Assembly (NCBI GenBank): GCA_002898255.1 | Contig: BEIE01000001.1 | Span: 806,001-870,000, forward strand | Source: a bacterium HR28 | Lineage (GTDB): Bacteria > Chloroflexota > Chloroflexia > Thermomicrobiales > Thermomicrobiaceae | Length of the DNA: 64,000 bases | Reading direction: 5' to 3' | Shown: piece after piece, positions 19,966-46,325 of the stretch | How positions within the stretch are numbered: position 1 is the first letter of the stretch | Layout of the letters: each line of letters begins with the position of its first letter | Notes under the pieces: model-generated | Told to the model about the DNA's origin: nothing | The model's database searches: none | The model's input: the letters and a program-made list of their open reading frames with translations, nothing else | Translations under genes and position numbers: made by a program

Positions 19966-20441
19966 CGGCTCCCCCAGAGGACTGCCGTGCCTCAGCTTAA
20001 CTCTACTTGGCCGGTTCTCGCGCGGAGAAGAGTAAACCCTGAATTCACGCCAGCAAACAGTCGCGGACAATCGATAATTGGCGATTTTTGCGGCAACCTG
20101 TACACGGTCAAAAGGTACTAGAAAATCTTCTGTACACTCGCACCGAGCCGTGGAATGTTCTGAGGCGGAGAGCAGAGGAGCCTCCTTGGGCTGCTGCGCG
20201 TGGTCTGCCAAGTCACTGAGCGGCGGTAATCTCGGCGAGCAATGGCGAGGAGTCAGCGAGTTCCTCGCTGCATGCCGCTCAATCGGTCGTGGTCGTGCGC
20301 GATACGGGAAGCCCGCCTTGGTGTGGTGAAGATCGAGCTTGGGTGGCAAGCTACCGGTACTGAGCATGCCCGTCGCGCAAATTTCGCTTGTTCCCGTCGT
20401 ATGATTCGCCGCGAGTCTCGCGGGGAGTTTGGAGGGCAGCA
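19966..20441. other. Divergent intergenic region with a repeated CTGTACAC octamer
   Basis: About 475 bases between divergently read CDF and dehydratase genes. A locally AT-rich patch (20085-20140) holds two direct copies of CTGTACAC (20098-20105 and 20130-20137), 32 bases apart, which could be operator half-sites. A TATGAT at about 20399-20404 could be a -10 for the dehydratase gene but lacks a good -35. No coding frame is convincing. Confidence 0.4.
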
Positions 20442-21635
20442 ATGCGGATCACGGATGTCCGCTGCGCGGTGCTCGGCGAGCACCCAGTCGTGCGCATAGT
20501 GACAGACGAAGGGATCGACGGGTACGGGCAGGTCGAGTCGACCAAGTCGTATGTCAAGTGGCACGTGCTTTTTTACCGTGAGCACCTTCTCGGTGAGGAT
20601 CCGACCGATGTCGCGCGGGTGATGCGCAAGATCCGTCGTCTGGGTGCATTTAAGCCGTGGGGCAGCGCGGTCAGTGCGATCGAAATGGCGTTGTGGGACA
20701 TCACTGGCAAGGCGTATGGCGTGCCGGTGTACAAGTTGCTCGGTGGGAAACTCCGTGATCGGGTGCGGATCTACAACGGCGGTGTGCGGCAGCCGCTCCG
20801 CGGGTACCAGCCGGAGCATTTTGTCGAACACGTCCGTTTCATGAAACAGGCACCGGAAAGATTTTCTATTGTGAAGGTCTCGGTCGGCTATCACGGGCCG
20901 ATGTTCGACGCGCTTCCTGGTGCACGCTACGGTGACCCGGTGCGTGGTGCGACGCCGTACCTGAGCCGTGGACCGCTAACCGAACGTGGGCTGCGGCATC
21001 TTGTCACTTGCGTGGAGGCAATGAAGGCCGAACTCGGCGAGGAGATCGGGCTCGCGCTGGATTGTGGGCCGGGCTGGACCGTCCCAGACGCGATTCGCTT
21101 CGCTCGTGCCGTTGAGCATCTGAACCTGCTTTGGCTTGAGGATCTGATCACCGGTGACTACACGCCGTACGTTCTGGCCGATGTTTACCGCGAGGTGACA
21201 GAGCAAACCACTGTGCCGATCCACACGGGTGAGCAGATCTACCTGCGTGAGAACTTTGTGGAGTTGATCGAGCGACACGCGGTCCGGATCATCGGCCCTG
21301 ACCCAGCCGACGTCGGTGGGCTAGCCGAGCTGAAGTGGGTCGCCGAGTACGCGGATCTTCACGGTATCCTGATCGCTCCGCATGGGATCTATGATGGTCT
21401 TATTGGTCTTGCTGCACTCGTTCATGTCTGTGCAACGCTTCCTGACAACTTCATCGCCTTTGAGTATCCGGTGGCACGACCGGAATGGTGGTATGACATC
21501 GTCGTTGGTCTACCTGATCCGATCGTGGTTGATGGGCATATCGCAGTCTGGGATAGTCCGGGACTTGGTGTCACCTTCGACGTCGAACGCGCGCGGCAGT
21601 ATCTGGCCGAAGAAGACCGGGGATTCTTCGACTAA
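20442..21635 (+). CDS. Enolase-superfamily sugar-acid dehydratase (mandelate racemase/muconate lactonizing family)
   Basis: Cytoplasmic magnesium enzyme of 397 residues. It has the capping domain (residues 1-115, with WDITGKAYGVPVYKLLGG) and a TIM barrel. Metal ligands can be assigned as Asp207 (LALDCGPGW), Glu233 (WLEDLI) and Glu264 (IHTGEQIY); a candidate catalytic Lys145 (IVKVSVG) and His314 (IAPHGIYDG) are present. The GE pair at ligand 3 and the PHG motif recall the galactonate/mannonate dehydratase subgroups, but Gly lies where galactonate dehydratase has His two residues after ligand 1, so the substrate is open. The ATG at 20442 has GGAGGG upstream. It begins a plus-strand catabolic cluster. 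Confidence 0.88.
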   Translation: MRITDVRCAVLGEHPVVRIVTDEGIDGYGQVESTKSYVKWHVLFYREHLLGEDPTDVARVMRKIRRLGAFKPWGSAVSAIEMALWDITGKAYGVPVYKLLGGKLRDRVRIYNGGVRQPLRGYQPEHFVEHVRFMKQAPERFSIVKVSVGYHGPMFDALPGARYGDPVRGATPYLSRGPLTERGLRHLVTCVEAMKAELGEEIGLALDCGPGWTVPDAIRFARAVEHLNLLWLEDLITGDYTPYVLADVYREVTEQTTVPIHTGEQIYLRENFVELIERHAVRIIGPDPADVGGLAELKWVAEYADLHGILIAPHGIYDGLIGLAALVHVCATLPDNFIAFEYPVARPEWWYDIVVGLPDPIVVDGHIAVWDSPGLGVTFDVERARQYLAEEDRGFFD

Positions 21636-21665
21636 CGAGACCGAGCGCTAAGGGGGAAAGGAGCG

Positions 21666-22421
21666 ATGATACTGAACTTCGATATCCCGGATATCGAGCG
21701 GCCACCTCGCGATCTTCTCACAGCACTGAGTGCTGAAGTAAGTAGTGCGGCAGCAACCAGCGCGCTCTATCGTCTAGGCATCCGCGACTCGCATTTGCGA
21801 GGTCTGGTGAGCTTCAGCCCGGGGGTGAAAGTCGTCGGGCCAGCCCTCACGCTCCAGTTCATGCCGAAGCGGGAGGACGTGTACGGCCAGACAGAGTATG
21901 ACGACGTGGAACGGCAGCTGCACCGTCATGTTCTCTACAAGGCGCAGCCGGGCGACGTTGTCGTCGTGGATGCACGGGGACATCTTGGCAGTGGTGTTTT
22001 CGGCGAGATGATGCTGACATACTTCAAGGCTAAAGGTGGTGTCGGAGTGGTCGTTGATGGTTGTATCCGCGACTTTCCACGTGTCAAGGAACTCGGCCTT
22101 GGCCTTTGGCTCCGAGGCGTAACGCCGAACTTCCACACCCAAACCGATCTCTTCCCCTTCGCTGTGAACGTGCCGATCGCCTGCGGGGAACGCCTGGTTT
22201 TGCCGGGCGATATCATCATCGCCGACGACGACGGTGCGGTTGTGGTGCCGCGTCAGCTCGCCGAGGCGGTGCTCGCCGACGCGCGTGAGCATGCGGAGTG
22301 GGAGGCGTTCGCCCGAGAGCGGCTTGCGGCTGGAGGCGACTTGCGGGTCTACTATCCCCTGACCGAAGCAGCCCGGACCGAGTACGAGGCCTGGCGACAA
22401 GGACGCCGACAACAAGGCTGA
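21666..22421 (+). CDS. RraA family protein (HMG/CHA aldolase-like)
   Basis: 251 residues of the RraA/4-hydroxy-4-methyl-2-oxoglutarate aldolase fold, 30 bases after the dehydratase gene. The core motif is present: GHLGSGVFGEMMLTYFKAKG (gxlGg...t.aa...G) followed by VVDGCIRDFPRVKEL, in which the Arg-Asp pair binds pyruvate and the divalent metal in catalytic members. The position beside a sugar-acid dehydratase suggests that it splits a 2-keto-3-deoxy or similar acid into pyruvate and an aldehyde; this is inference. The N-terminal 30 residues and a C-terminal helix with REHAEWEAFARERLAAGG are typical of longer members. Confidence 0.85.
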   Translation: MILNFDIPDIERPPRDLLTALSAEVSSAAATSALYRLGIRDSHLRGLVSFSPGVKVVGPALTLQFMPKREDVYGQTEYDDVERQLHRHVLYKAQPGDVVVVDARGHLGSGVFGEMMLTYFKAKGGVGVVVDGCIRDFPRVKELGLGLWLRGVTPNFHTQTDLFPFAVNVPIACGERLVLPGDIIIADDDGAVVVPRQLAEAVLADAREHAEWEAFARERLAAGGDLRVYYPLTEAARTEYEAWRQGRRQQG

Positions 22422-22879
22422 CGCGAACGACTCACAGAGACGAGCTTTCAGCGTCCTTCCCGGCGAGCCATCCGCTGTTCGCATAGGGTTTGAAAGGCCC
22501 AGCGAAAAGCCGAGGCGTGGGGCGCGGTACGACGGTGCCCAGTCCGGAGCCGAAGTTCGTCTGCCCGTTGTCGTCGCCCCGCGATGAGCAGTTGCAGCAA
22601 CGTTCCCCACCACTTTGGTCGGCGTGGCCTCTCTCCGTGCGATGGACTCCCACATACAAGCTGCGGATGAGCAGGATCTCACATGGATGCCCGTTCCCGC
22701 TTGGCGGAAGGGGGTGGAAACTGGTTGCCGAGGGAGACTGGCAGCTCGTTTGGGCGCACATTCTCGCAACACTCGTGCAAGCCGTAGGCTCTGGCCCGTC
22801 ACGTGCTTGGTGGCGCGCGTCACGAGGTACTGCGCTAGGATACCGCTGAGGCATGGCGGCCGGGAAAGGAAGGCGAGAC
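22422..22879. other. Intergenic region, nothing recognised
   Basis: About 460 bases between the RraA and aminoacylase genes in an otherwise tight cluster. No ribosome-site-led frame, no repeat copy and no clear promoter was seen. It may be the site of a lost gene. Confidence 0.35.
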
Positions 22880-24508
22880 GTGGAAGTCGATCTCCTTATT
22901 CGCAACGGGCAGATCGTCGACGGGACGGGGAATCCATGGTTCCACGGTGATGTCGCGGTGCGGGGGGATCGAATCATCGCCGTGACACCGCCGTGCTGCA
23001 TTGCGCCTGAGAATGCCCGGGAAGTCATCGATGCCACGGGGTGTGTCGTTTGCCCGGGGTTCATTGACATCCAGAGTCATTCCATCTATCCGCTCATGAT
23101 CGACGGGCGATCCGTCTCCAAGATCGCGCAGGGGGTCACCACCGAGATTATGGGGGAGGGGTGGACGCCAGCGCCGTTTGGGGGACGGATCCGCGAGCCG
23201 ATCCCTCGCGCCTACTTCGCTCGGCCGCTGCCGGAGTGGGAAGAGCGGGCGCGCCGGTGGCGTCGTTTCCGCGACTGGCTGGAGGCGATGGTCGAACGCG
23301 GCGTTTCGCCGAACATTGGAGCGTTTCTGGCCGGTGGGACACTTCGCGAGTTCGTGAAAGGCTACGACATGACGCCTGCAACACCTGACGAACTCGCGGC
23401 GATGCGTCGCCTCGCTGCCGAGGCGATGGAAGACGGTGCGTTTGGCGTGGCCTACGCGCTGATCTATCCGCCGGATGCCTATACCTCAACCGAGGAACTC
23501 GTGGAGATCTGCCGCGAGGTACGACGCTGGGGAGGCATCTACATCACGCATATCCGTTCAGAGGCGGAACGGCTCTTTGAGGCGCTCGAGGAGGCGATCA
23601 CAATCGGCCAACAGGCGGAGATCCCCGTCGAGATCTATCACTTAAAGGCCTCAGGAAGGCGAAATTGGTGGAAGTTCCCGAGCGTCATTGCCCGGATCGA
23701 GCAGGCTCGGCGCGAAGGACTCGACATAACCGCCGACGTCTACCCTTACACAGCGGCCGGTACCGGGTTGGCCTCAGTCTTGCCGCCCTGGGTGGCAGCG
23801 GAGGGCCGCTTCTACGAAAATCTCCGTGACCCAGTGATGCGCGCCCGTATCCGGCGAGAGGTTGAACAACCCTCGGGTGACTGGGAAGCGCTCGGTCTGG
23901 AGGCTGGGCCGGAGGGGATCATGCCGGTCGGGATGCGCCATCCGGAACTCCAACGGTACGTGGGGAAGCGCCTCTCGGAGATTGCTGCTGAGCGGGGGCA
24001 AGACTGGATCGATACAGTGATCGATCTCCTGCTCACCGAGCAGCGCAACATCTTTACCATCTACTTTGTCATGGATGAAGCGAACGTGCGGCTGGCACTC
24101 CGACAGCCCTGGGTAAAAGTGGCGACGGACGCTGGAGGCCTTGATCCTGCCTGGGCACGGGCAGATGGGCCTGTGCACCCGCGTGCCTACGGGACATACC
24201 CACGGGTGATTGCGCGCTACGTACGGGAAAGCCGTGATCTGACACTGGAAGAGGCGATTCGCAAAATGACGTCGGCCGTCGCGGATCGGCTCGGCCTGCG
24301 TGACCGCGGTCAGGTGCGGCCGGGCTTCTTTGCTGACCTCGTTGTCTTCGATCCAGTCACAATCAGTGATCGAGCAACCTTCGCGGATCCCCACCAGCTG
24401 CCCACGGGGATCCGACACGTGTGGGTGAATGGCGTCCAGGTGCTGCGAGACGGTGTTCACACTGGGGCACTACCGGGCCGGATTGTCTCTGGGCGTGCCT
24501 GCGCGTAG
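22880..24508 (+). CDS. N-acyl-D-amino-acid deacylase-like amidohydrolase (variant metal site)
   Basis: Amidohydrolase-superfamily protein of 542 residues with the D-aminoacylase layout: a small beta domain at both ends (DLLIRNGQIVDGTGNPW, and VRPGFFADLVVFDP near the C-terminus) around a TIM barrel. His224 (YITHIRSE), His254 (EIYHLKASG) and the catalytic Asp417 (VATDAGG) are in place. The usual HxH is QSH (Gln65-Ser66-His67) and the usual metal-bridging Cys in GNCG is replaced by a GEGW motif (92-95). The protein therefore belongs to a variant subgroup and may act on another N-acyl or cyclic substrate. I choose the GTG at 22880 (AAGGAAGGCGAG upstream) over ATG 22853. Confidence 0.82.
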   Translation: MEVDLLIRNGQIVDGTGNPWFHGDVAVRGDRIIAVTPPCCIAPENAREVIDATGCVVCPGFIDIQSHSIYPLMIDGRSVSKIAQGVTTEIMGEGWTPAPFGGRIREPIPRAYFARPLPEWEERARRWRRFRDWLEAMVERGVSPNIGAFLAGGTLREFVKGYDMTPATPDELAAMRRLAAEAMEDGAFGVAYALIYPPDAYTSTEELVEICREVRRWGGIYITHIRSEAERLFEALEEAITIGQQAEIPVEIYHLKASGRRNWWKFPSVIARIEQARREGLDITADVYPYTAAGTGLASVLPPWVAAEGRFYENLRDPVMRARIRREVEQPSGDWEALGLEAGPEGIMPVGMRHPELQRYVGKRLSEIAAERGQDWIDTVIDLLLTEQRNIFTIYFVMDEANVRLALRQPWVKVATDAGGLDPAWARADGPVHPRAYGTYPRVIARYVRESRDLTLEEAIRKMTSAVADRLGLRDRGQVRPGFFADLVVFDPVTISDRATFADPHQLPTGIRHVWVNGVQVLRDGVHTGALPGRIVSGRACA

Positions 24509-24519
24509 AGGAGGAACGC

Positions 24520-25761
24520 ATGCTCGCCTTGCAGGTCGTGGAGAGCGTGCCTCGCTATGTCCTTGCCAAGGCCATTGGGCGGTGGCGTCCTGAAGTCTTC
24601 TGGAATGGGCTCGGTCTCCTGGAATTCCGAGATGTCCCCGAGCCGAGGCTACCGACCGCCGAATGGGTGCGCATTGCGACACGCTACAGCGGCATTTGTG
24701 GCAGTGATGTGGGGCTCATCACGCTCCATGCCAGTCCGACGACATCGCCGCTGGTTTCCTTCCCTTTCACGTTGGGACATGAGACGGTTGGCCGCATTGT
24801 GGAACTCGGGACCGGAGTTGAAGGACTGCACATCGGCCAGCGTGTCACGGTGAATCCGCTGCTCGCCTGTGCGGCTCGCGGTTTCCGCGAGCCGTGCCCG
24901 GAGTGTGCGCGTGGCATGCCGAACCGCTGCTTGCGCTTTCGTGAGGGGACTGTTTCTCCGGGTATCATGATCGGCTTCTGCCGAGATACTGGCGGGGGAT
25001 GGAGCGCGAGCTTCGTTGCGCACCGGTCGCAGGTCGTTCCCATCCCTGACCACGTGAGCGATGAGGAAGGAGTGCTGGCCGAGCCGTTCGCAGTAGCCTT
25101 ACACGCGGTATTGCAGAACTGCCCGGCCGACGACTCCACGGTGCTGGTGCTCGGCGCGGGAATTATCGGGCTGCTGACAATCGCTGCGTTGCGGGCGATC
25201 GGTTCGCGGGCGCGGGTACTCGTCACGGCACGGTACCCCTTCCAGGCGCAGGCAGCAGAACGGCTGGGTGCGGACGTCGTCCTGCTTGGTCGCTCGGGCC
25301 CTGCGCTGTATCGAGAGCTGTCCCGCCTGACCGGAGCGCGAGTGCTGCGAGCTCGGTTCGGCCGCTGGCTGATGCAGGGTGGGGTCGACCAGGTGTTCGA
25401 TTGTGTCGGGTCAGGGCGATCTGTCCATGACGCGCTCGCGGTCACGCGGGCCGGTGGCCGAGTCGTGCTGGTTGGGTTGGCAAGCGACCCACGAGGTGTG
25501 GACTGGACTCCAGTCTGGCTACGGGAAGTGGAGATCCGTGGCTCGATGGCCTACGGGGAGGCAGAACTCGATGGGATTCGTGCCTCGTGCGTTGCACACG
25601 CTGTACGGCTCATGGCGGAGCGGCGAGTGGAGCTCGGCTGGCTGGTGACGCACCGGTTCGCGCTCTCGGACTACCGTGCGGCGTTGGCTGCCGTGACGGC
25701 GAAGGGGGAGAGCGGGGTCATCAAAGCGGTGTTCGAGTTCCCCAGCGAGACGAGCGTCTGA
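24520..25761 (+). CDS. Zinc-dependent medium-chain alcohol/sugar dehydrogenase
   Basis: 413 residues of the MDR superfamily, 11 bases after the aminoacylase gene. An N-terminal GroES-like domain carries the catalytic zinc site (SGICGSDVG and LGHETVG). The structural zinc lobe has four cysteines within CAARGFREPCPECARGMPNRC, with wider first spacing than usual. The NAD(P) domain has VLVLGAGIIGLLTIAALRAIG. Residues 265-300 contain an insertion-like segment (YRELSRLTGARVLRARFGRWLM). The ATG at 24520 follows AGAGGAGGAACGC. Its place after dehydratase, aldolase-like and amidohydrolase genes suggests oxidation of a polyol or sugar acid, or of a 2-keto intermediate. Confidence 0.88.
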   Translation: MLALQVVESVPRYVLAKAIGRWRPEVFWNGLGLLEFRDVPEPRLPTAEWVRIATRYSGICGSDVGLITLHASPTTSPLVSFPFTLGHETVGRIVELGTGVEGLHIGQRVTVNPLLACAARGFREPCPECARGMPNRCLRFREGTVSPGIMIGFCRDTGGGWSASFVAHRSQVVPIPDHVSDEEGVLAEPFAVALHAVLQNCPADDSTVLVLGAGIIGLLTIAALRAIGSRARVLVTARYPFQAQAAERLGADVVLLGRSGPALYRELSRLTGARVLRARFGRWLMQGGVDQVFDCVGSGRSVHDALAVTRAGGRVVLVGLASDPRGVDWTPVWLREVEIRGSMAYGEAELDGIRASCVAHAVRLMAERRVELGWLVTHRFALSDYRAALAAVTAKGESGVIKAVFEFPSETSV

Positions 25762-25829: not shown

Positions 25830-26996
25830 TTAGGACATGGGAACTTGCGGAATAAGCTTCCCCTCGATCCGTTCCAGGATTTCGTCCATGCTGCGGCCGG
25901 TAATCGTCACACCGTGGTTCTTCAGGCCGATGACCGCACGTGTGGGATCCGGTTCTTGCGCGAGCGTGTTCGAGACGGCTAGTGCCAGCTCCAATGTCCC
26001 GCAGGGATAGTTAATCTCGGTCGAGCGGATCCCCTCCATCCAGGCGTGGACATGGACGATAGCGCCGATCTCGGGATGCTGCTGGTAGATCATCCAATGT
26101 TCGATTGCATCCACCGACACGCGGCGTGGCTCGACGTTGGGCGGCACGCTCAAGATGATCGCAGGGATAGTGGGATCGAAGCCACTGACCATCAGGATGT
26201 CACGACCGATCACTTCCAGCTGTGCCTTGTTAACGCCGCTCGCACTCATCCAGAAGCGGTGACGGTCCTTACGAGCGCTCAGGTTGCCGTAGCTCAATCC
26301 GCCAAGGCCGTAGAGCCGCTTGACGTGGCGAAGGTCCTCTTCGCTCAGGAGCTCGTGCACCGGGAAGGGGGCAGGCAACAAATTCATCGCCTCCAGGCGC
26401 TTCCCGGCCCGCGAGATCTGCTGCGTGATCTCATCGCCGTTCCAGAGTTCCGGCTCGAGATCGGTGCGGAACACGTTATTGATGACGAGCCGTGATGCAG
26501 CGAGCGGATGGAGGCGCTCGTAGATGGTCGCGAAGAAGAGGTCGTCTTCACCAGGACGATACGGGATGCCGTAATGTCCACGTTCGAGCGTGACGAAGTG
26601 CGCCTCCGGCCCGTGCTCGCCCGGAATCAGGATGAGAACAAGGTTAGCAAGCGCATATAGCAGATAGGGGTAACAGGCTGTGAGGATGTCCTGCGGGCGC
26701 TCTGGGAATTCTGTAATCCCGACGACAAATGTGGCCTGTGCTTTGCGGCGATAGCGGGCAGGGCGATCGTGCGGGAAGACGTTGAGCACGAGTCGGATGT
26801 CGGGGATCGGCTTGGGATGGTACTCATGTCCTCGTCGCTCGAGCTCACGTCGGAGTCCATCAATGAACCATCGGAGCTGGTCGCTCGGGGGTTCGCCATA
26901 GATCGTAAACGTGCCGGTTTCTGGCTCCTCGGCGAGGATGCGTAACGCTTCGGCCAGGGCCTCGGTTTGGTTGAAGATCCGCTGTTCGGTCGTCAT
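25830..26996 (-). CDS. Class II aldolase/adducin family protein with an extra N-terminal domain
   Basis: 388 residues. The C-terminal half (about 205-388) is a class II aldolase domain: GGLSYGNLSARKDRHRFWMSASG (the phosphate-binding GN.S.r), zinc ligands His315 and His317 in IVHVHAW, and His361 in GLKNHGV. The N-terminal 200 residues form an unrecognised domain with TGTFTIYGEPPSDQLRWFIDGLRRELERRG and a hydrophobic LLYALANLVLIL stretch; ordinary class II aldolases are only 200-270 residues. The start is placed at the ATG at 26996 because the preceding open frame looks unconserved; the AAGGAG is rather far (about 13 bases). Opposite strand to the catabolic cluster but plausibly linked. Probable role: retro-aldol cleavage of a sugar phosphate or keto acid. 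Confidence 0.8.
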   Translation of the reverse strand: MTTEQRIFNQTEALAEALRILAEEPETGTFTIYGEPPSDQLRWFIDGLRRELERRGHEYHPKPIPDIRLVLNVFPHDRPARYRRKAQATFVVGITEFPERPQDILTACYPYLLYALANLVLILIPGEHGPEAHFVTLERGHYGIPYRPGEDDLFFATIYERLHPLAASRLVINNVFRTDLEPELWNGDEITQQISRAGKRLEAMNLLPAPFPVHELLSEEDLRHVKRLYGLGGLSYGNLSARKDRHRFWMSASGVNKAQLEVIGRDILMVSGFDPTIPAIILSVPPNVEPRRVSVDAIEHWMIYQQHPEIGAIVHVHAWMEGIRSTEINYPCGTLELALAVSNTLAQEPDPTRAVIGLKNHGVTITGRSMDEILERIEGKLIPQVPMS

Positions 26997-27082: not shown

Positions 27083-28084
27083 TCAACCGCTCGATGGGCA
27101 GGTGCCCTGAGGGACACGGAGTGTTAGGGCGCGTGGCACGGCGCGTGCTTCGATGTCGGTTGTCCCCACCGGTTCGCCATCCATCTCGACGCGGATCGGC
27201 TCAGCTGCCTCGACGCGGACCGTACGCCCGCTCCAATGCTCGACAGCCGGATGCCCCACGTGTGCCCCGCGGTAGACAGCTGGCAGCAAGGAGCCGAGGA
27301 GTTCCAGCCGCGAGACGTTACGTAGCACGAATACCTCGAGTTGCCCATCGGTGACCGAGGCCATCGGGGCGATGCGCATGCCCCCGGCGTGAAAGCGACC
27401 GTTGGCGATCGCAACCATCAGCGCCGGGCCTTCAAAAACATGGCGACCATCGACGGTGATAGAGAGCGTAGCGGCGCGGTGACGCAAGATCGTACGCATC
27501 GCTCCGACGAGGTAGGCGAGAAAACCGCCAAGCTGCTTTGTCGAGTGACTTACCCAGGCGGCCGTCTCCGCACCGAGGCCGATATCGGCCATATTCACGA
27601 AGAAGCGACTACGCGGCAGACCGGCGGGGTCGCGGAATTGCAGAAAACCCACGTCGACCCGGCAGGTCTCTCCCCAGCGCAAGAGGTCGACTGCTTGTTC
27701 CGGGCGAGTAATGCCAAACAACCGAGGGAAGTCTCGCCCTGTGCCACAAGGGACAATGGTCAACGTGACTGGCCCAAGTGGATGACCGTCTTGGTCGAGA
27801 CAGCCGTTCACCACCTCGTTAAGCGTTCCGTCACCGCCAACGACGAGGAGTTCCCGTACTCCGTTCTGGACGAGATGACGAGCGAGGTAGGTCGCGGCGC
27901 CGGGCTCTGCGGTGTGAAGCTCGTCAACACGAAGCCCAAGCTGTTCCAGCCGCTGGCGGATGGATGGCCAGGCGCGCGCTGGGCGACCACTCCCGGCGAC
28001 CGGATTGACGATGGCGTGGACTGTCGCTGGGAGGAAGTGCGCTGCGCTTGCGGGTGTGGTCTGCGTTCGTCGTTCCTGCTGCAT
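27083..28084 (-). CDS. Diacylglycerol kinase family lipid kinase (YegS/BmrU-like)
   Basis: 333 residues. The DAGK catalytic domain begins with VHAIVNPVAGSGRPARAWP, followed by GVRELLVVGGDGTLNEVVNGCLD (the ATP-binding GGDGT) and LTIVPCGTGRDFPRLFGI (the P.GT.nD.aR). The C-terminal beta-sandwich contains FHAGGMRIAPMASVTDGQLEVFVL, typical of YegS-type kinases. Likely phosphorylates a lipid head group at the inner membrane face. Start: the ATG at 28084, with GAGG about 10 bases upstream, is preferred because the frame further upstream looks unconserved. It is followed by the aldolase gene 86 bases downstream on the same strand. Confidence 0.88.
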   Translation of the reverse strand: MQQERRTQTTPASAAHFLPATVHAIVNPVAGSGRPARAWPSIRQRLEQLGLRVDELHTAEPGAATYLARHLVQNGVRELLVVGGDGTLNEVVNGCLDQDGHPLGPVTLTIVPCGTGRDFPRLFGITRPEQAVDLLRWGETCRVDVGFLQFRDPAGLPRSRFFVNMADIGLGAETAAWVSHSTKQLGGFLAYLVGAMRTILRHRAATLSITVDGRHVFEGPALMVAIANGRFHAGGMRIAPMASVTDGQLEVFVLRNVSRLELLGSLLPAVYRGAHVGHPAVEHWSGRTVRVEAAEPIRVEMDGEPVGTTDIEARAVPRALTLRVPQGTCPSSG

Positions 28085-28868
28085 CGGAGTAGGCGACCTC
28101 ACTCTCTCGCGATCGTTCCCATGGTAGCGCAGAGTGTATTCCCTGTGAAAGGCATAGGATGACCCCGTGATCATAAGCTATCGTGCTGCCTTTCGGCGGG
28201 AAGAGGCTCGAGGCCGATGGAGGGAGTTCCCGCTGGCCTCGGTGAGTGCAGGGTGGGGCAGTGCCAGGGCTCAGAAAGCGTCAAAGGAGGATGCTCCTAG
28301 AGAGAGCACAACATACGTCCCAGCAAAGCGGACAGTACGGGGCTGCGCCGCGGAAAAGGATCTCAGCGGTGGCTTGGGCGCGGGGAGTTCTTGCCGTGGG
28401 CCGCCGGGCACTTGGCTTTGACGGTTCTGTGCCAGCGTCGCCGGGAATCCCCGGTGCTGCGGTGCCCCATCGTGAGGAGGGCGTGTCGATCGAGAAGCGC
28501 CAACGTGGATTCCGAATCGGCTTTCTCGCGCTGTGTTCGTCCAGCGACGGATCGGGCAGGTCGCTGACGAGCGATGCGGGACGTGGAAGCAACTGGCTGC
28601 GCCAGCCATGCCACACTGCCGAAAACGATCGGCGAGCAAACTGCAGCGTGTCCAGATCCCCAGACGCACGGTGGTGGGTGGGGCGCCACCTGTCCCTCTG
28701 GGGGCGCGATGATTGCACCTGCTGCCGTGTCAGGGTACCGCCATGTATGGCGCCCGCACGCCCGGAGGGGCTAGATACCGCTCGTGCTGTAACCAACACC
28801 GGCCTCGCCCCACCAGGTCGGCCGCGGCTCGTGGCTGCCGTGTTACAGCGGCCCGCTCCCGTGGCTGA

Positions 28869-35741: not shown

Positions 35742-36506
35742 GTGCGCTTGACAATATGCTGGCTGTATGCGCGCACGATGAACATTTACGGTGACCGTGG
35801 CAATGTCCTGGCCCTGGTCGAGCGATGTCGTCGCCGAGGAATCGAGACGGAGGTGGTAGAAATCGGGGTCGGGGAGCCGCTCGAACCGGGTCGCTGTGAC
35901 CTCTTCTTCTGGGGCGGGGGACAAGACCGAGAGCAGATTGCCGCGGCTGAGGACCTTCAAGGCACCAAGGGGGAGGTCTTGCGGGCGGAGATCGAGCGAG
36001 GAGTACCGCTCCTCGCGGTCTGTGGCGGATACCAGCTGCTCGGTCGGTTCTACCGACCGCATGAGGGACCGGAGCTCCCCGGGCTCGGCGTGTTTGACGC
36101 CTGGACAGTTGCTGGATCACGGCGGATGATTGGGAACGTGGTCGTGGATTCCCCCGACTTCGGCGAGTTGGTCGGCTTTGAGAATCACAGTGGGCGCACC
36201 TTTCTTGGCCCTGGTGCTCGTCCGCTCGGCACGGTACGGATCGGGTACGGCAACAACGGCAAGGATCGAACGGAGGGGTGCCGGTACCGTAACGCGATTG
36301 GCACATACCTTCACGGACCAGTACTGCCGAAGAACCCGCAACTGGCCGATCATCTGATCGCCTGTGCGCTTGCATTGCACGGGTGGGTTGGTAGCTTGGA
36401 ACCGCTCGACGACGCACTCGCGCGGGTGGCGCATGAGGAAGCAGTGGAGCGTGCGCGCGTAGAACGGCCGACGCTTCGCCGCTTCTGGCCGCTCACGAGA
36501 CGGTGA
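35742..36506 (+). CDS. gatD: Lipid II isoglutaminyl synthase, glutamine amidotransferase subunit GatD
   Basis: 254 residues, CobB/CobQ-type class I glutamine amidotransferase that supplies ammonia to MurT. The nucleophilic Cys lies in VPLLAVCGGYQLLG (about residue 94) and the catalytic His in GTYLHGPVLPKNPQLADHLI (about 189). The start RLTICWLYARTMNIYGDRGN is typical of the family. The GTG at 35742 follows GGAGGGACGTC. The last 14 bases overlap the 3' end of the convergent GH57 gene, marking the border between the cell-wall and alpha-glucan operons. Confidence 0.92.
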   Translation: MRLTICWLYARTMNIYGDRGNVLALVERCRRRGIETEVVEIGVGEPLEPGRCDLFFWGGGQDREQIAAAEDLQGTKGEVLRAEIERGVPLLAVCGGYQLLGRFYRPHEGPELPGLGVFDAWTVAGSRRMIGNVVVDSPDFGELVGFENHSGRTFLGPGARPLGTVRIGYGNNGKDRTEGCRYRNAIGTYLHGPVLPKNPQLADHLIACALALHGWVGSLEPLDDALARVAHEEAVERARVERPTLRRFWPLTRR

Positions 36507-38937
36507 GATCGGCTTCCGCTGTCTCGAATGCGATCCAGAGAACATCGCAGAGCGCGCGGAAACGCTCGATCCATTCGCGTGCCGCTTGCTCACCTCGCTG
36601 GGCGCGCCAGCGTCGCTCTGGTAGTGCGCGCTGCAGCAACTCGTAGACGATGTTCTGGACACGCCACGTATTGACTGGTTCGCTGAGGTGGCTGGCAACC
36701 TTGGCCAAGCCCGTAAGGGTGTTCAAGAGCTCCAGGTCGTCCGGCTGGTGACGCCACTCCTGGGCGAGTGCTTCGAGCGCTTCTTGGAGCGCGTAGGCGA
36801 GTCCAGGCTGGTCGAGGGTGAGTTGCCAGACTTCTGCCTCCTGGAAGAGTTGCTCCAGCCTCTCGACTGAGGGACGTGGTTCGGCTAGTGTGTGACGCAG
36901 TTCCGCGTTGACTGTCATCTCAGCGGCGATAAGGAAGGCACGCGGGATTGGGGCACCCAAATCGGCGAGGAACCGCATCAAAGGCTGACTGTCCTCGTAC
37001 AAGTGGCGATACAGCTCCTCAGCTTCCGCGAGGGTCGAGGTGAGGATGATGTGGAGAAGCTTGCGCTGCTCGTCCTTGAAGAGAGATCGCAGTGAGTAAT
37101 CAGCCCGGCCGAATGCACGGTCAAGTGCCCGCACCGTTTCTGGCAGATCTGCCCGGCCGAACGGTTCGCTGAGGAGTTGACGGACTTCCGCGTAGCGCTC
37201 TGGTGTGCCGTCCGATTCGACGCCGCCAACGAGGTTGTGCTCGCCGAGGTGTAGGGCAGCGGTGAGAAACGCTAGCTGTCGTCCAGTGAGTGTTGAAGTC
37301 ACGCGGACACGGGCAATGAAAAGGTGTGCTCGTCCGGCACGTTGGGCGATCCCCTCGAGGCGCTCGATTTCAAAGCAACCGATAGAGGCGCGCTCTGGAT
37401 AGTCCTCGAACAGCGCGCTGAGGGCATAGTGCGCAGCGACATTGGCAAATTCGACCCGTGCTGGCCGAACCAGGCGTTCCCAGACACCGCGGCCGTCGTG
37501 ATACTGTGGGAGATTACTCGGCGCACGCGCTAGGCGCTCAACGAACTCTTGCTCAAGCGAGGTGTGGAACAGCTCCTCAGCGATCTGGATGACACGAGCA
37601 GCGGACTGGAGGGCCTGGACAGTCTCCAGCCCGGAGAGTTCGTCGAAGAACCAGGCGTCACTGCTGTACATACGCAAGGCGTGTCGCTGCATCTCGAGCG
37701 CCTCGAGCACGAGGATCTGCTCCTCAGGTCGGAGCGCACGCACCTGCCAGCGCTCCAGAAAGCGCTGCACGTTCCCTGGCGAACGATCAAGAATCACTTC
37801 AATGTAATCGTCACGAGCCCCCCAGGGATCGTGGAGGAGTGTCCCAACGTGTTGCTCGTACAACAGAGCGACTGTATCACGCAGCCAGTCGAGCGCTTCG
37901 CGGAGCGGCCCGCGCCACTCCTGTGTCCATTCGGGGTGGCTTCCCATCTTGCACCCACAGTTGCTCCGCCAGCGCTCGATGCCATGGATGCAGCTCCAGG
38001 ACGTCTGCTCCACGATCTGCGCTTCCCACGTTGGCGGGTGCTCGGCCAAGTACGCTCCGTAAGTGATAACACGGGCGTCCTTTGCAGCTTGGATGGTGGC
38101 GATGGCTGCAGCGAGGGCCATGTCCCCGAAGCGGTGATGATGGCCGTACGTCTCGCCGTCGGTCGCAATGTGGGCGAGCCGATCGGCGGTGTCGCTCGCG
38201 GCGGAAAGCAAGCGCGCGCCGAGCTGCCGGCCGTCCTGTAAGAGATCACCAAAGGCGACGTCGCGAGCGATCGCACCATCGTAGAAGAAAGCAACAACTT
38301 CTCGGTCTGACGAGAGTGCAATGCGGTAGGGCCGCGTGGTTTCGACGCGACCTCCTGAGACGTCCTGCCACCCGCTAAAGCCCGGGGGGCGGACGGCTGC
38401 TGCCTGGTGCGGCGCGAGGATGACGAAGCGCAGGCCGAGATCGGCCACCAGTTCGAGGGTTGGCAGATCGACTGCCGTTTCCGGCAGCCAGATCCCTTCC
38501 GGTCGCCGGCCGAAACGATGCTCAAAGTCACGGATACCCCAGAGAAGCTCGGTGCGTCGGTCACGCTCGTTGGCGAGCGGCAAGATTACGTGATGGTAGG
38601 GGTGGGCGATAGCGGGGCCGTGCCCGTTGAAGCGTTCGCATCCCTCGCGGTCAGCATCGAGAATCGCGCGGTAGACGTCGGGGGCTTCGCGTTCGAGCCA
38701 CCAGAGCAGTGTTGGGCCGAAGTCAAAGCTGATCCAGGCGTAGTTGTTCACAATCCGGACGATACGACCGCGCGGGTCGAGGATTCGTGACCAGGCATTG
38801 GGGCCATAGCACTCGGCGGTGATCCGCTCGTTCCAGTCGTGATACGGGTAGGCAGAATCCTCGAGTTCGACGATTTCGAGCCAAGGATTCTCCCGTGGCG
38901 GCTGATAGAAATGCCCATGGATGCAGACATACCTCAC
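36493..38937 (-). CDS. Glycoside hydrolase family 57-type protein with DUF3536 domain
   Basis: 814 residues, last gene of the alpha-glucan operon. The N-terminal GH57 catalytic barrel starts [20 protein letters not shown]; the likely nucleophile Glu153 is in [17 protein letters not shown] and the likely acid Asp260 in [33 protein letters not shown] follows. The C-terminal 400 residues are helical and correspond to the DUF3536 region. Family members include alpha-amylases, branching enzymes and amylopullulanases acting on alpha-glucan, but DUF3536 types are largely uncharacterised. The GTG at 38937 shares a GTGA overlap with the glgB stop, which fixes the start; the longer frame to 39171 lies inside glgB. 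Confidence 0.88.
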
Positions 38938-40877
38938 GGCAGGCTCCGATCGCTCGCACGCTCGAAGATCACGATGGCGAGTGGTGGCAGCGTGAGCACC
39001 AGTGAGTAGCGGCGTCCATGCCAGGGAACCGGAACCGTTTCCACCCCACCAAGGTTGCCCCAACCACTGCCGCCATACTCGCGCGCGTCGCTGTTGAGAA
39101 GTTCGCGCCAAAAGCCCGGGAGCGGAGCTCCGACGCGGTAATTCTGACGTGGCACCGGGGTGAAGTTGCACACGACGAGGAGTTCCTCGCCGGGACGCCG
39201 ACTCTTGCGGAGGTAGACGAGCACGCTGTTCTCGGCGTCATTGCAGTCGATCCATTCAAAACCTTCGGGCGAGCAGTCGAGTTCGTACAGCGCTGGCTTC
39301 GTCCGCGCGAGGTGGTTCAAGTCAGCCAGCCAGCGCCGAACGCCCTCGTGCGGTGCATACTGGAGGAGATCCCAGTCAAGGCTTGTCTCGTGGTTCCACT
39401 CGCGCCACTGTGCGAGTTCGGCTCCCATGAAGAGAAGTTTCTTGCCGGGCAGCGTATATTGGTAGCCGTAGAGCAGCCGGAGGGTGGCAAATTTTTGCCA
39501 ATCGTCACCCGGCATCTTGGCGAGCAGGGATCCTTTACCATGCACGACTTCGTCGTGCGAGAGTGGCAGGACAAAGTTCTCGTTAAAGGCGTAGAGCATG
39601 CGAAACGTCAACTCGTGGTGATGATATTTCCGGTAGATCGGATCGTGGCTGAAGTAGCGCAACGTATCGTGCATCCAACCCATGTCCCATTTGAGCCCGA
39701 AGCCGAGTCCGCCGACGTAGGTTGGTCGTGATACCATCGGCCAAGCAGTCGATTCTTCGGCGATCGTCTGGACGTCGGGGAAGTGTCGGTAAACCTCCTC
39801 ATTCAACCGTCGCAGGAAAGCGATCGCCTCCAAGTTCTCGCGCCCGCCGTATTCATTGGGGATCCACTCGCCTGGACCGCGGGAGTAATCGAGATAGAGC
39901 ATGGAGGCGACGGCGTCGACGCGGAGTCCGTCGGCATGATAGCGATCGAGCCAGAACATGGCGCTGGAGAGCAAGAATGTCCGTACTTCGTTGCGCCCAT
40001 AGTTGAAGATCGCCGTGTGCCAGTCAGGGTGGAAGCCCTTACGGGGGTCAGCATGTTCGTAGAGGTGCGTCCCATCGAAGAAGACAAGACCGTGCTCGTC
40101 GGTTGGGAAATGCGAGGGAACCCAGTCGAGGATCACGCCGATGCCCTGCTGATGGAGTTCGTCGATCAACGCCATGAAGTCCTGTGGCGTGCCGTAGCGT
40201 GCTGTTGGCGCGAAGTAACCAGTGATCTGATATCCCCATGAGCCGTAGAAGGGATGCTCCATCACCGGCAAAAACTCCACGTGCGTGAAGCCCATGCGGC
40301 GCACATGCTCCGCCAGGCGTGGAGCGAGTTCCCGGTAGGTGAGCCAGCGGTTCCCCTCTTCCGGGACGCGCATCCATGATCCGAGATGCACCTCGTAGAT
40401 CTGCATCGGGGCGTCGAGCGCATTTGCCTGCCTGCGTCGGTGCATCCAGTCGGCGTCGTGCCACTCGTAGTCGAGTTCCCAGACGATTGACGCGGTTCCC
40501 GGTGGACACTCGTGCCAGAACCCATATGGATCGGCCTTGAACACCTGATACCCGTGGTAACGAGAGACGATATGGTACTTATAACGCGCACCTACCCTGA
40601 GTCCTGGGATGAAGCCTTCCCAAATGCCGGAGCTCCCGCGCGGTGCGAGAGGGTGCTTCCCTGGTGTCCAGTCGTTGAAGTCACCGACAACCGAGACACG
40701 CTCGGCATTGGGAGCCCATACGGCGAAAAACACCCCCTCTTCGCCGTCAAGCGCGCATGGATGCGCACCCATTTTCTCGTAGGCCCGGAGCCAGGTGCCC
40801 TCGTTGAACAGGTACACATCGTGATCAGTAAGGAGAGACCGATCGTGGCGCACCGGGCCGACGCGCTGTTCCACCAT
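38934..40877 (-). CDS. glgB: 1,4-alpha-glucan branching enzyme GlgB
   Basis: 647 residues, GH13 enzyme that makes alpha-1,6 branches in glucan. A CBM48 domain (about 45-135, [20 protein letters not shown]) precedes the catalytic barrel: nucleophile Asp321 in [18 protein letters not shown], general acid Glu in IAEESTAWP (372-380), and the substrate-binding [15 protein letters not shown]. It lacks the long N-terminal N1 domain of E. coli GlgB, as thermophile enzymes often do. The ATG at 40877 has GGGGGTGTGAGG upstream and is 4 bases past the malQ stop; the longer frame to 40961 lies within malQ and is unlikely. Confidence 0.95.
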
Positions 40878-40881
40878 CGCC

Positions 40882-42951
40882 TCACACCCCCTTCCCCAGC
40901 CGGTCGTGCGACGGGCGAGTGGGAGCACTCGCGGCGCGTTGCCGACTTTTCTCTCGGGCACGGTTGAGCGTTTTGAGGAGCTCTAAGACGACTGGAGTGG
41001 TGGCAAAGTCAGCCATGCCGTACTGCGTCAGGCGGCGCCAGTTCGGCTGTTCGAGGCCGGTCCCTGGTCGATTCTGCGGTTGGCGCTCGCCCCAGAGATC
41101 CTCGAGGTTAACCAGAACGACCGCGGCGTCACTGGAACCGAGGAAACGTAACAGTGCACCGATAACGTCGTTCAGCCGTGGCGCAGTATGCTGTTCGAGA
41201 AAACCTGCGCTTGCGAGCCAGGCGACGACGGCGCGCTGAATATCCTGCCCCCACTCGTCCCAAAGCGCGGCGAACGGTGGGAGGTCATGCGTGTCCAGAC
41301 TGGCCACGCAAAGTCTCGGTGGTGTGGTGAAGGTGCCGTTGCGCCGCTCAAACGGCAGAACCCACAGCCGGAGTAACCCCTCCCTTGCCATTGCCTGCCG
41401 CACGGCTCGCGGGACAGTGCCAAGGTCTTCACCCGCGACGGCACATCCGGTACGGTAACTCTCGATTGCTAGGACGGCGTAGTACTCCTCAGCCGGATAG
41501 CGGACGTAGACCCCTTCCCGTCCGCTCGCCTGCGCGGGGACCCAGTACAAGCGGTGGAACCCCATGACGTGGTCGATACGGAGAAGGCGTGCTGTGCCGA
41601 GATGGTGAGTAAAGACCGCTCGCACGTAGCGATACCCGTCCTCGCGGACGCGTTCTGGATGGAGCGGCGGAAAGCCCCATACCTGTCCCTCGGCGAAGAA
41701 CGGGTCAGGCGGCGCACCGGCACTCGCGTCCGTTGCGAAGAGATGCGGCCAGCGCCAGACATCGAACCCTTCGGGATGGACGCCGAGCGGTAGATCGAGA
41801 TAGAGCGCGTCATGGCCAACCGTGGCGATCTGCTGCGCCGCCAGCCATTGTGCCACTGCATAGGGCCAAGCAGGCTCACCAGGTCCCACCTCACTCCTCA
41901 GGAGTTCCACACGGAGACTGGACGACCAACGGCTGGGACGACCAAAACGATCGACCGCAGCGCGGAAACGCGCGTACTCCGCGAGGATCGGATGGGTATC
42001 CAGCCAGGTCTCGATCTCTTGCCGCAAGGCAGGCTGCTGCGCCAGTTGGTGGCTGGCGACTTTGAGCGCGGCGAAGCGTTGTTGCCAGCTCGTCTGGTAG
42101 TCCACTAGGCGCGTGCCACTGGCCCCTGGTACCGTCGTGAGCTGGTACTCCTCTACGTCAACTGGAAGCGGAAGCGCACGAAGATCGACAAAAAACTCGC
42201 TCCACGCAAGGCGACTGACTGGTGCATATGGACTGGGGTCATAAGGGTCATCGCCGAGGAACGTGGGCAGGAGCGGGAGGGTTCCCACGAGCGCACCACC
42301 GCACTGGCGCGTCCAAGCTGCAAGTTCCTGGAGTCGTCGGTAGGTCGCTCCGTCGCGCGGCTCCTCACGCCAAGCGGCGTACAGCGGGAGGAAGACGCCC
42401 CAAACAGAGTTAAGCCCGACATCTTCCGGAGGTCGTACAGTCGCCGGGCGTACCATCAAGAGCGTGCGAGTGATTCGACCATCTGGACAAGCGATCTCCA
42501 CCTCGTGGTACCCGATCGGCAGCCGATAGTGAAGTGGCAGCTCGACCTGCATGCAGGTGAAGTCAAGGCTGGGCGCGAGAGGTGCTGCCGGCTGCACAGT
42601 GGTGAGTTCCTCGCTGGAGACGACGAGGTGGAGCACGTCGTCGTTCTCGCTGCGGACAAGAAGTTCGAAGCGGCCACGAGGTTCTGCTGGGAGAAGCAGA
42701 CGGAGACGAGGTGTTCCCCGTCCGTGTGTCCAGACGTGCACCGGCTCACAGCGTCGCTCCAAGCGTGCTTGCCACCGCTCCCGCAGCAGCGTCGCTGCTT
42801 CTTCAGGCGTACGGATCGGAATGCCGAGGGCACGGAGCGTCGCAAGGAGCTGTTCTACACGGGCGACCTGCCGCACTCCGGCGATGTCACGGTAGGCGAG
42901 CTGGAGGCCGGCATCGTGAGCCAGTGCGCGGAGGGCAGCGAACCGGTTCAT
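40882..42951 (-). CDS. malQ: 4-alpha-glucanotransferase (amylomaltase) MalQ
   Basis: 689 residues, GH77. It moves maltosyl or longer units between glucans. About 170 N-terminal residues form the extra domain seen in actinobacterial and proteobacterial MalQ, then the barrel begins with [16 protein letters not shown]. Catalytic residues: nucleophile Asp460 ([16 protein letters not shown]), acid Glu508 (AGEDLGTVP) and the stabilising Asp556 ([10 protein letters not shown]). It overlaps the TreS-maltokinase gene by 4 bases, so it is translationally coupled. In this operon it can rework the maltooligosaccharides made or used by GlgE. Confidence 0.95.
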
Positions 42952-45900
42952 GCACCACCCTCCCGGGCGCGGAGCAGCTCGAGGATGCCGCGGAGCGGGA
43001 TTGCGAGCCAGCCTGGCCGGTGTCCCAGCTCATAGCGGAGCTCGTAGATCGCCTTGTCCATCAAGTAGGCTTCGAGCAGCACCGCTAGCTGTTTCGGGTC
43101 ATTGGGGATCAGCGTTGTGGATTGCAAGCCCTCAAGATAGCCCTGCAGGAAAACTGCGGCGACCCAACCGTACCAGAAGCGAAGCCACGCCTCTGCCCGT
43201 GCCGTGTCGTGCAGCAGACCACGCTGCAGTTGGTCGAACAGGGTTGCCGAGGCAGCATAGTGGAACGAGCGGAGCATGCCAGCGACATCGGTCAGCGGCG
43301 AGCGCTTGAGCCGCCGCTCGCTGAGCGGGCGAGCTGGCTCCCCCTCAAAGTCGATGATGACGAAGTCGCGACCGGTATAGAGCACCTGCCCGAGGTGGTA
43401 GTCACCATGGCAACGGATGCGCTGGGCCGGTAGAAGCTGCTGCAGCAATCGCTGGTAGACTTGGACGATCTCGCGTTCGCGTTGGAGGACAGTCTCGGCC
43501 TCGCTGCGGACATTCTCGGGAAGCTGGGCAAGCCGATCCCGCAAGAGGGTGAAGGTCTGCAGCAGCTGACTGCGCATTGCCTGGTAGAGCGAGCGCTGGT
43601 AGAGCATCGAGAACGGTTCCGGTGCAAACGCGGGATCATCGGTAAGGCTGGCGAGTGCTCGGTGGAGTTCAGCGGTGCGCTGGCCGAGGAGATAGGCGGA
43701 CTCGACATACGTGTCAATCAACTCATAGACGATCGGCGGCGGGGAGCTTGCCGCGCGGGCCAAGAGGGCTTCAGCATCCAAACCGAGAGACGGGGGCTCT
43801 TCGCTGTAAGCGAGGGCGCGTTCAAGGAATCCAGCAAGCATGTCCAGCGTGTACTGCCAAGCGTCACCCTCATTCGGTACATAGCCGAGCAACACGGCAA
43901 GCGTCATCGCCTCGCCGCTCGCCGGCCGATAGTCGAGGCTGCCGGCCAGAGGCGGGACGTATCGAAAACCAAGTCGCTCGGTCAGCGCTCGTTCGAGCTC
44001 GAGTTCTGGGTTCGGGCCAGGTTCGATCCTCCGGTAGAGCTTGAGGAGGACCCGTTCTGGGAAGATCACAGAGGTGTTGCTTTGTTCCGCGCGACCGAGC
44101 ACTGGTTCGGGGAGCGGTGTGCCCGGCCAGACCAAGCGACGGAACGCGGTCGTCGGCTGTGCGACCACCGTGCCGTGCTCTCCCCGGAAACGTCGCCGGC
44201 GACCGATCTGCTCGACGAGACTGCGGCTGAACGAGGGAACCGCGAGCGCGTCGACGAGGAGAGCCGTTTCGTCGGGTAACGCACGCGCAATGACGGCATG
44301 TGGTGTGCGTTCGATGAGTTCGCGTGCAAGATCGCCGCGGGCGATGGCCAGCGGCAGGACATACAGTTCCGGATCGCCCTCGGTGTACTCGACGGAGATA
44401 AGGAGGAGGGTTGCCGCTACCCCGTCGACGGGAAGCGGTATCTGATCAGCGATCCGTACCTGCTTGATCCGCCGGGCCTTACCCGCAAACCAGCGCCGCG
44501 CCCGAAGGTAGCGTGGGAGTTCATCCAAAAGCGCGCGCTGCGCCGTGCTGAGGTCCAGTGTCCCCTCGCGCTCCCGTACCGGAATGACCGGGAGCTCACT
44601 CGGTGTCACCACGAGCAGCTCTTCGCCGGCGCGCGGGCGCTCGAGGCTGAACCAGTAGAAGCTGTGCGGGCCAAGCATAACCCGATACGGCTCTTCGCCG
44701 ATCGGCGGGAACTCGATACGACCGAAGAGTTCTATCGGAACCAGGCCACGATAGGCCGAAAGATCCAGTTCAGCCCACTGGACAAAGCGGGAGAGGTTTG
44801 CAACGACGAGGATCGTTTCCTGCTCGTAGCGGCGGACATAAGCCAAGACTTTCCGGTTGTCGACCGGGATGAACTCGAACGACCCGCGCCCGAACGCCTT
44901 AAACTGTTTCCGGAGCGCGATCAGTCGCTTCATCCACCAGAGCAGCGAATGGGGATTTGCCTGCTGCGCTTCGACATTGACCGCCTCGTAGTGGTACTCG
45001 GCATCGACGATCACTGGCAAATAGAGGCGCTGGCGCGGTGCGGTAGAGAAGCCAGCGTTGCGGTCGGCGCTCCACTGCATCGGCGTGCGCACGCCGTTCC
45101 GGTCCCCAAGATAGACATTGTCCCCCATCCCGATCTCGTCACCGTAGTAAATGACCGGGGTGCCAGGGAGCGAGAAGAGTAGGCCATTCATCAGCTCGAT
45201 GCGGCGCCGGTTGTTCCCGAGGAGCGGCGCAAGCCGCCGGCGGATGCCAAGGTTGATACGGGCAACTGGATCACGAGCATAGACGCGATACATGTAGTCG
45301 CGCTCTTCGTCGGTAACCATCTCGAGCGTCAGCTCGTCGTGATTGCGCAGGAATAGGGCCCATTGAGCAGTTTCCGGAATGGGCGGGGTCTGGGACAGGA
45401 TATCGACGATCGGGAAGCGGTCTTCCATACGGATTGCCATAAAGAGGCGCGGCATCAGCGGAAAGTGAAAGGCCATATGACACTCGTCGCCCTGCCCAAA
45501 ATAGGCGACCGCGTCTTCCGGCCACTGGTTTGCCTCGGCCAAAAGCATGCGATTGCGGTAACGACTATCAACGTAACGGCGGAGCTCCTTCAAGAAAGCG
45601 TGGGTCTCGGGCAGGTTCTCGCAGTTCGTCCCTTCACGCTCATAGAGATATGGCACGGCATCAAGCCGCATCCCGTCGACACCAAGGCGCATCCAGAAGT
45701 CGACGACGCGGAGGATGGCACGACGCACCGCTGGGTTGTCGTAGTTGAGGTCGGGTTGATGCGAGTAGAAGCGATGCCAGTAGTAGGCTTTGGCCACCGG
45801 ATCCCACGCCCAATTGGAAGTCTCGAAGTCCTTGAAGATAATGCGGGCCTCTTTGTACTTTTCCGGCGTGTCGCTCCAGACGTAGAAGTTGCGCCAGACA

Positions 45901-46316
45901 CTGCCGGGTGCCGCGCGCCGTGCCCGTTGGAACCACGGATGCTGGTCAGACGTGTGGTTGAGGACGAGCTCGGTGATAACCCGGATCCCGCGCCGATGTG
46001 CCTCGCGGATGAACTCTTTGACGTCGCGGAGGGTGCCATAGGCGGGATGGACGTCCGTATAGTCGGCGATGTCGTATCCGTCGTCACGGAGCGGTGACGG
46101 GTAGAACGGTAAGAGCCAGACAGCGGTGATCCCGAGGTCTTCGAGGTAGTCAAGTTTTTGTGTGAGTCCTGGGAAGTCACCAATTCCGTCCCCGTTGCTA
46201 TCGTAGAAGGCGCGGACGTGGAGCTCGTAAATAATGGCGTCCTTGTACCAGAGTGGATCGTCGGGAAGCTGTGGTACCGGTGTGGCTCGACGACGTTCGG
46301 CGACCTTGACCGCCAT
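42948..46316 (-). CDS. treS: Trehalose synthase/maltokinase fusion (TreS-Mak)
   Basis: 1122 residues, two enzymes in one chain. Residues 1 to about 580 are GH13 trehalose synthase, which interconverts trehalose and maltose: nucleophile Asp219 ([14 protein letters not shown]), acid Glu261 ([11 protein letters not shown]) and Asp327 ([11 protein letters not shown]). Residues from about 610 to 1122 are maltokinase, an APH-like fold with HGDYHLGQ (970-977) and DFEGEP (989-994) carrying the catalytic and metal-binding Asp residues. The fusion channels trehalose to maltose 1-phosphate, the GlgE donor. It starts 9 bases after glgE ends and overlaps malQ by 4 bases. Confidence 0.95.
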
Positions 46317-46325
46317 AGAAGCCCC

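Follow-up and report, generated by a model that had tools for sequence, protein, structure and literature searches.

A class II aldolase variant and a predicted CoaB-like-fold partner domain in a conserved fusion family of Chloroflexota

The window (the whole stretch of DNA analysed, 64,000 nucleotides) contains a gene, P0001, whose product joins a class II aldolase-family domain to an N-terminal part of different character. What this second part is, and what the two parts might do together, is the question addressed here. The gene belongs to a genome of 3.12 Mb in 8 contigs, that of a bacterium related to the thermophile Thermomicrobium, and its parts and the adjoining genes are listed in Table 1. 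Upstream of 26996 the reading frame stays open as far as a TTG at 27086, from which it would encode 418 aa.

Table 1. Positions in the window of the fusion gene, its parts and the adjoining genes
Feature	Coordinates	Strand	Description and basis
Two-domain fusion gene P0001	25830..26996	-	388 residues, stop codon within coordinates (translation)
N-terminal domain, predicted CoaB-like fold	26493..26921	-	Residues 26-168 (~143 residues); AF2, VIA-align
Connector, conserved	26355..26492	-	Residues 169-214 (46 residues); alignment A1; motifs INN....D, LW.GD
Class II aldolase-family domain	25833..26354	-	Residues 215-388; Pfam PF00596, FucA/AraD alignment, conservation counts
YegS/DAGK-type lipid kinase	27083..28174	-	Directly upstream of the fusion; TIGR00147, 177.6 bits against a cut-off of 118.65
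Zinc medium-chain alcohol/polyol dehydrogenase	24421..25761	+	Convergent with the fusion; Pfam ADH_N, ADH_zinc_N

Conservation of the two-domain family

Matches to P0001 were found in 27 of the 61 genomes of a set of relatives, its own genome counted, and in 19 of the 28 genomes of that set with a completeness of 90% or more and a contamination of 5% or less. A further weak match in genome G005 (E 5.1e-4, residues 8-124) is taken as chance. Meanwhile, a profile of the N-terminal domain (A2), built on an alignment (A1) of 23 sequences from which near-duplicates and the cut copy L013 were excluded, had a single match in each of 28 genomes out of a phylum sample of 400. Eleven genomes (the own genome and ten others) are common to the 27 relatives and the 28 phylum genomes, and all these counts refer to Chloroflexota. 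Short exact peptides of one family protein identified 10 loci in genome contigs, eight of them from Thermomicrobium, Thermomicrobiaceae, Thermalbibacter, Sphaerobacter or Dehalococcoidia and two from Bacterium HR26 and HR27, in which the match positions are the same as in relatives G018 and G006. The closest homologue with a named source is 98% identical and comes from a Thermomicrobium strain.

By a full-length profile, 44 distinct family sequences were recognised in the loci examined, and 41 of them cover nearly the whole two-domain profile. The remaining three comprise L013 and L049, which are cut by contig ends, and L062, for which just the first stretch was listed (total score 537.1); a piece of the N-terminal domain at a contig end (L066, genome G284) lies outside the 44. 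Cut copies aside, an N-terminal domain without the aldolase domain was thus not seen in these loci. Conservation was counted in an alignment of 43 rows, from which L062 and a duplicate of the query were left out.

Both parts are under purifying selection, with the N-terminal domain held more loosely than the aldolase domain. In four pairs, dN was 0.111, 0.238, 0.244 and 0.366 for the former and 0.020, 0.065, 0.110 and 0.142 for the latter, and dS was 1.2-2.5 or saturated across both parts (at least 2.1 or saturated in the N-terminal domain). The fusion on which the original prediction was built is therefore real: sequence conservation that reaches across genera and classes, invariant residues and purifying selection mark it as a true family. 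In the open-licence literature, no report of a class II aldolase with an N-terminal domain in Thermomicrobium was found, and nothing on class II aldolase together with phosphopantothenoylcysteine or on adducin together with Chloroflexi.

The N-terminal domain

Nothing in Pfam, NCBIfam, PHROGs, PDB sequences, viral contigs or plasmids (searched in protein mode) matched the N-terminal domain. No NCBIfam model has its best stretch on P0001 beginning before residue 224, and the PDB sequences gave four weak rows for P0001, three of class II aldolases/epimerases and one of a ribosomal protein (best E 0.18), and no match to the N-terminal profile at E up to 10. The 23 N-terminal domains found no credible family in Pfam, where three families were listed with a best E of 0.095. 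As the original prediction had held, the part is not a duplicated aldolase domain; this origin is ruled out by an hhalign comparison of the two parts (probability 0.16 percent). Y109, T136, E138 and G140 of the domain and N174 of the connector are invariant in all 43 rows.

The N-terminal domain is modelled with confidence. In the full-length AF2 model, made with 11 sequences, the ten-residue block means are 58-96 over residues 31-160, and the domain modelled alone has a mean pLDDT of 78.6 and a pTM of 0.75. The predicted elements follow the order strand, helix, short strand, strand, strand, helix, three strands, helix, and the model bears out the compact alpha/beta character previously proposed. 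In VIA-align, where Z 7-8 is typical of models that lack a clear match, entries of CoaB (phosphopantothenoylcysteine synthetase, PF04127 DFP) occupy ranks 1-14 of the best 50 listed for the domain model (Z 9.6-11.3, rmsd 2.7-3.3, 131-141 residues aligned), these 14 entries representing few source proteins. The next row is a mutase subunit (Z 8.7, 108 residues), and receiver domains appear at Z ~8 with 102-109 residues. For the full-length model, ten CoaB entries stand at the top (Z 8.6-11.2), followed by CosR at 8.5, barely below the lowest CoaB.

Other comparisons gave no such signal. Foldseek alone returned nothing at E 1e-3 or better; its best match was KaiC (1.8e-3, TM 0.29), and among the best 50 matches listed, with KaiC in most of the top rows, CoaB is absent. 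Pfam DFP was matched by none of the 23 N-terminal domains at E up to 10, a search in which the HMMER filters drop most matches above 0.1. The hhalign probability against CoaB was 0.18 percent locally and 0.17 globally, not above the controls (0.28 for CoaC, 0.26 for the aldolase part against CoaB and the above-mentioned 0.16 for the two parts of the fusion); the CoaB profile had 28 rows, from the own genome and 27 relatives, with the cut ahead of CoaB placed at residue 180 in the CoaBC of this genome. Because Foldseek and profile comparison are without signal, we propose only with moderate confidence that the domain has a CoaB-like Rossmann-type fold lacking the CoaB signature motifs, and we do not claim membership in CoaB/DFP. 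The likeness to CoaB would thus lie in the predicted fold, whereas the domain is ~50-75 residues shorter than the listed CoaB chains, is joined to an aldolase domain and has neither a sequence or profile match nor the signature motifs. A role of the fusion as a CoaB replacement is ruled out by the presence of CoaBC in the same genome.

The original prediction spoke of an unrecognised domain of ~200 residues and suggested profile search and structure prediction of residues 1-200. Its unrecognised status stands as far as the sequence libraries go, as no family matched, whereas the predicted fold does resemble a known one. The extent needs revision, the folded part being ~143 residues, followed by the 46-residue connector, which has low AF2 confidence.

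The aldolase domain

Aldolase_II (PF00596) is the only Pfam family seen on P0001 (E 5.7e-16, 59.4 bits against a cut-off of 22.2). It matches in two stretches, the best at residues 229-318, which together take up positions 13-92 and 128-173 of the 183 in the model; the 35 positions between, 93-127, are skipped, with 10 residues in their place. In the alignment with FucA, whose numbering was checked on the fetched sequence, G237, N238, G254, S294, D296, H315, H317 and H361 correspond to G28, N29, G44, S71, E73, H92, H94 and H155. In FucA, residues 92, 94 and 155 are the zinc ligands and residue 73 is the acid; G28, N29, G44 and S71 belong to the phosphate site, and Tyr113 is catalytic. G237, N238, G254, S294 and D296 are kept in 43 of 43 rows, and H315, H317 and H361 in 42 (the remaining row having a gap), in agreement with the earlier claim that zinc-site residues lie in the C-terminal half. 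The motifs kept relative to FucA and AraD are GN.S (G237, N238) and SASG (G254), and the counterpart of FucA S72 is valine 295.

The fusion departs from FucA after the HVH motif, where ~25 residues are gone, including the position of Tyr113. The FucA segment that carries this tyrosine is absent in all 11 family members aligned (out of 44 sequences), and the shortened segment sits between HVHA and GT.ELA. AF2 performed poorly on the aldolase half, and 211 of the 388 residues of the whole protein are below pLDDT 50. None of the NCBIfam models reaches its cut-off on P0001. The best match is that of MtnB (methylthioribulose-1-phosphate dehydratase), TIGR03328, over residues 237-322; it remains far under its cut-off (40.9 bits against 137.05), and with 194 positions the model has no room for the N-terminal domain.

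Judged from these alignments, the C-terminal half is a trimmed class II aldolase variant with a predicted zinc site. It shares the zinc-ligand residues, the acid and the phosphate-binding motifs with the class II aldolase/adducin superfamily (FucA, AraD, MtnB), from which the fusion differs by its 388 aa, its extra folded N-terminal domain and its connector. The excess length previously noticed is confirmed against E. coli FucA (215 aa) and AraD (231 aa), lengths taken from annotated coordinates. The assignment of this half as a class II aldolase holds in the Pfam match and the zinc residues, but the domain is shorter than usual and not a standard one. Two canonical class II aldolases (L130 and L131) are encoded in the same genome. 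What is new here is a class II aldolase variant with a partner domain of predicted CoaB-like fold, a fusion undescribed in the libraries searched.

Gene neighbourhood and candidate reactions

The genomic context of homologues, which the original prediction had recommended examining, was compared in 36 loci (the window, 31 further stretches and four loci from the peptide scan), with open reading frames picked by a custom script. Many of the loci come from close relatives, so the counts are not independent. In 17 of the 36 loci, including one of another class (L093, genome G298), the lipid kinase cluster lies no more than 288 bases upstream of the fusion and on its strand; it was unseen in the other 19, some of which end early. 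The kinase is a possible operon partner of the fusion gene. The zinc dehydrogenase cluster occurs in 15 loci, in 11 of them within 150 bases of the fusion on either strand. Its member in L085 is only 27% identical to that of the window, and L089 has a further match (41%) outside the set of the ORF picker. In six other loci an SDR cluster (one member scanned) is directly downstream of the fusion, so that one or the other dehydrogenase cluster is near the fusion in 21 of the 36 loci and neither in 15, some of which end early. Together, the kinase and dehydrogenase neighbours suggest a pathway of several steps, and the fusion may, as the original prediction put forward, bind a second substrate or couple aldol cleavage to another step.

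Seven loci have, within ~4 kb of the fusion, a cluster of GT4 glycosyltransferases, of which one member was scanned. Three of these have a small extra cluster; its one scanned member, in L075, is a CDP-alcohol phosphatidyltransferase that comes close to phosphatidylinositol-phosphate synthases but stays under their cut-offs. These neighbours loosely tie the fusion to polar-lipid genes. Three further frames near the fusion (L085:5207-6589, L076:6168-8459 and L095:6461-6928) have no Pfam match at E 1e-3 and may be wrong. Elsewhere, the window contains a catabolic-looking run at 20388-24508 (+), with an enolase-superfamily dehydratase, an RraA-like protein and an amidohydrolase, and a compact alpha-glucan cluster at 36493-48347 (-). 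The latter comprises a GH57/DUF3536 protein, a CBM48/alpha-amylase (branching-enzyme-like), a 4-alpha-glucanotransferase, an alpha-amylase with maltokinase cap and APH domains (trehalose synthase-maltokinase-like) and a GlgE-type maltosyltransferase, the names beyond the Pfam families being inferred.

We consider it roughly an even call that the fusion is a zinc lyase/isomerase acting on a phosphorylated, possibly lipid-linked polyol, with the CoaB-fold domain helping to bind or enclose the substrate. The C-terminal domain has kept its zinc-site residues together with the acid and the glycine, asparagine and serine residues for phosphate binding, so its most likely activity would be enediolate chemistry, be it retro-aldol cleavage, epimerisation or dehydration, with a phosphorylated polyol- or keto-compound as substrate. 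The segment with the FucA catalytic tyrosine is missing, so acid/base function and the second-substrate pocket would have to come from elsewhere; the N-terminal domain may close the shortened pocket, or may hold a nucleotide or a portion of the substrate. The upstream kinase could make the phosphate and the adjoining dehydrogenase the carbonyl, both of which such chemistry needs. As the domain is new to the family libraries searched and the active site is re-cut, the reaction is probably outside the known class II aldolase assignments. The recurring pairing of the fusion with a lipid kinase and a dehydrogenase offers a testable pathway in a group with unusual membrane lipids, for which no biosynthesis was known when the Thermomicrobium roseum genome was published (PMC2615216).

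Several other explanations deserve consideration. The fusion might have no tie to lipids and act in polyol catabolism as an ordinary sugar-phosphate aldolase/epimerase to which a regulatory domain has been added, an alternative that we regard as possible but somewhat unlikely. It would fit the dehydrogenase neighbour, which resembles threonine, scyllo-inosose, idonate and galactitol-1-phosphate dehydrogenases (each below cut-off), and the next genes of the window, which are those of the catabolic-looking run. However, in the stretches compared, the dehydratase and the RraA-like protein have homologues beside the fusion in L037 alone, and the amidohydrolase has them in just three loci (L037, L067 and L070), whereas the lipid kinase recurs even in another class (L093).

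Rather unlikely, in our view, is that the N-terminal domain is solely a structural or oligomerisation module and that the aldolase domain works alone. The faster evolution of the N-terminal domain in dN is what such a module might show, but Y109, T136, E138, G140 and N174 are invariant and could form a site, and no full-length member found has lost the domain.

A bifunctional enzyme, in which the N-terminal domain would be a CTP-dependent CoaB-like ligase or nucleotidyl-activating domain passing its product to the aldolase site, appears improbable. CoaB structures with bound CTP, 1u7w and 6th2 among them, are part of the fold match, and a conserved basic stretch precedes a core strand: P79 and R84 are each kept in 42 of 43 rows (the other row having a gap), R83 is kept in 34, and position 85 is K or R in 41. 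Against this, nothing equivalent to the stretches TREPLDPVR, SSGKMG and AAVADY in the CoaBC of this genome was seen in the fusion (by eye, alignment A1), neither the DFP search nor hhalign found a relation, and the genome already has CoaBC.

The boldest case, which we hold to be very improbable, is that the fusion helps to build or break down the long-chain 1,2-diol backbone that stands in for glycerolipids in the membranes of T. roseum. The membrane of T. roseum consists of long-chain 1,2-diols, its genome has no plsB homologue, and the genome paper left the steps of diol formation to be clarified (PMC2615216). The aldolase site would link a three-carbon phosphate with a fatty aldehyde, or do the reverse; the neighbouring dehydrogenase would supply or remove the carbonyl, the DAGK-family kinase would phosphorylate the diol, and the CoaB-like domain would serve to hold a nucleotide or the acyl chain. 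If true, this would provide a missing step for the pathway left open in that paper (PMC2615216). The presence of PlsY (PF02660) was used as a marker for glycerol-free lipids. In the relatives set (at least 90% complete, at most 5% contaminated), PlsY is missing in 6 of 19 genomes with the fusion and in none of nine without it. Outside the order the direction is opposite (4 of 16 with the fusion against 6 of 11 without) in 27 hand-picked genomes, namely 16 of the 17 further fusion carriers in the phylum sample and 11 of the 20 non-carriers listed for it. As the trend reverses, PlsY gives the lipid idea no support, and with this contradictory signal the diol proposal is kept only as a bold case. 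No paper on Roseiflexus or Nitrolancea lipids was found in the open-licence literature. Finally, an artefactual N-terminal extension, from a mis-set start or a chance open frame, has nothing found in its favour and is refuted by the invariant residues across families and classes and by purifying selection.

As a separate observation, PlsY of the genus Thermomicrobium is divergent, with matches at E 1e-19 to 1e-23 (for example G000:C6:69819-70337), and that of most other members of the order matches at E 1e-38 to 1e-53.
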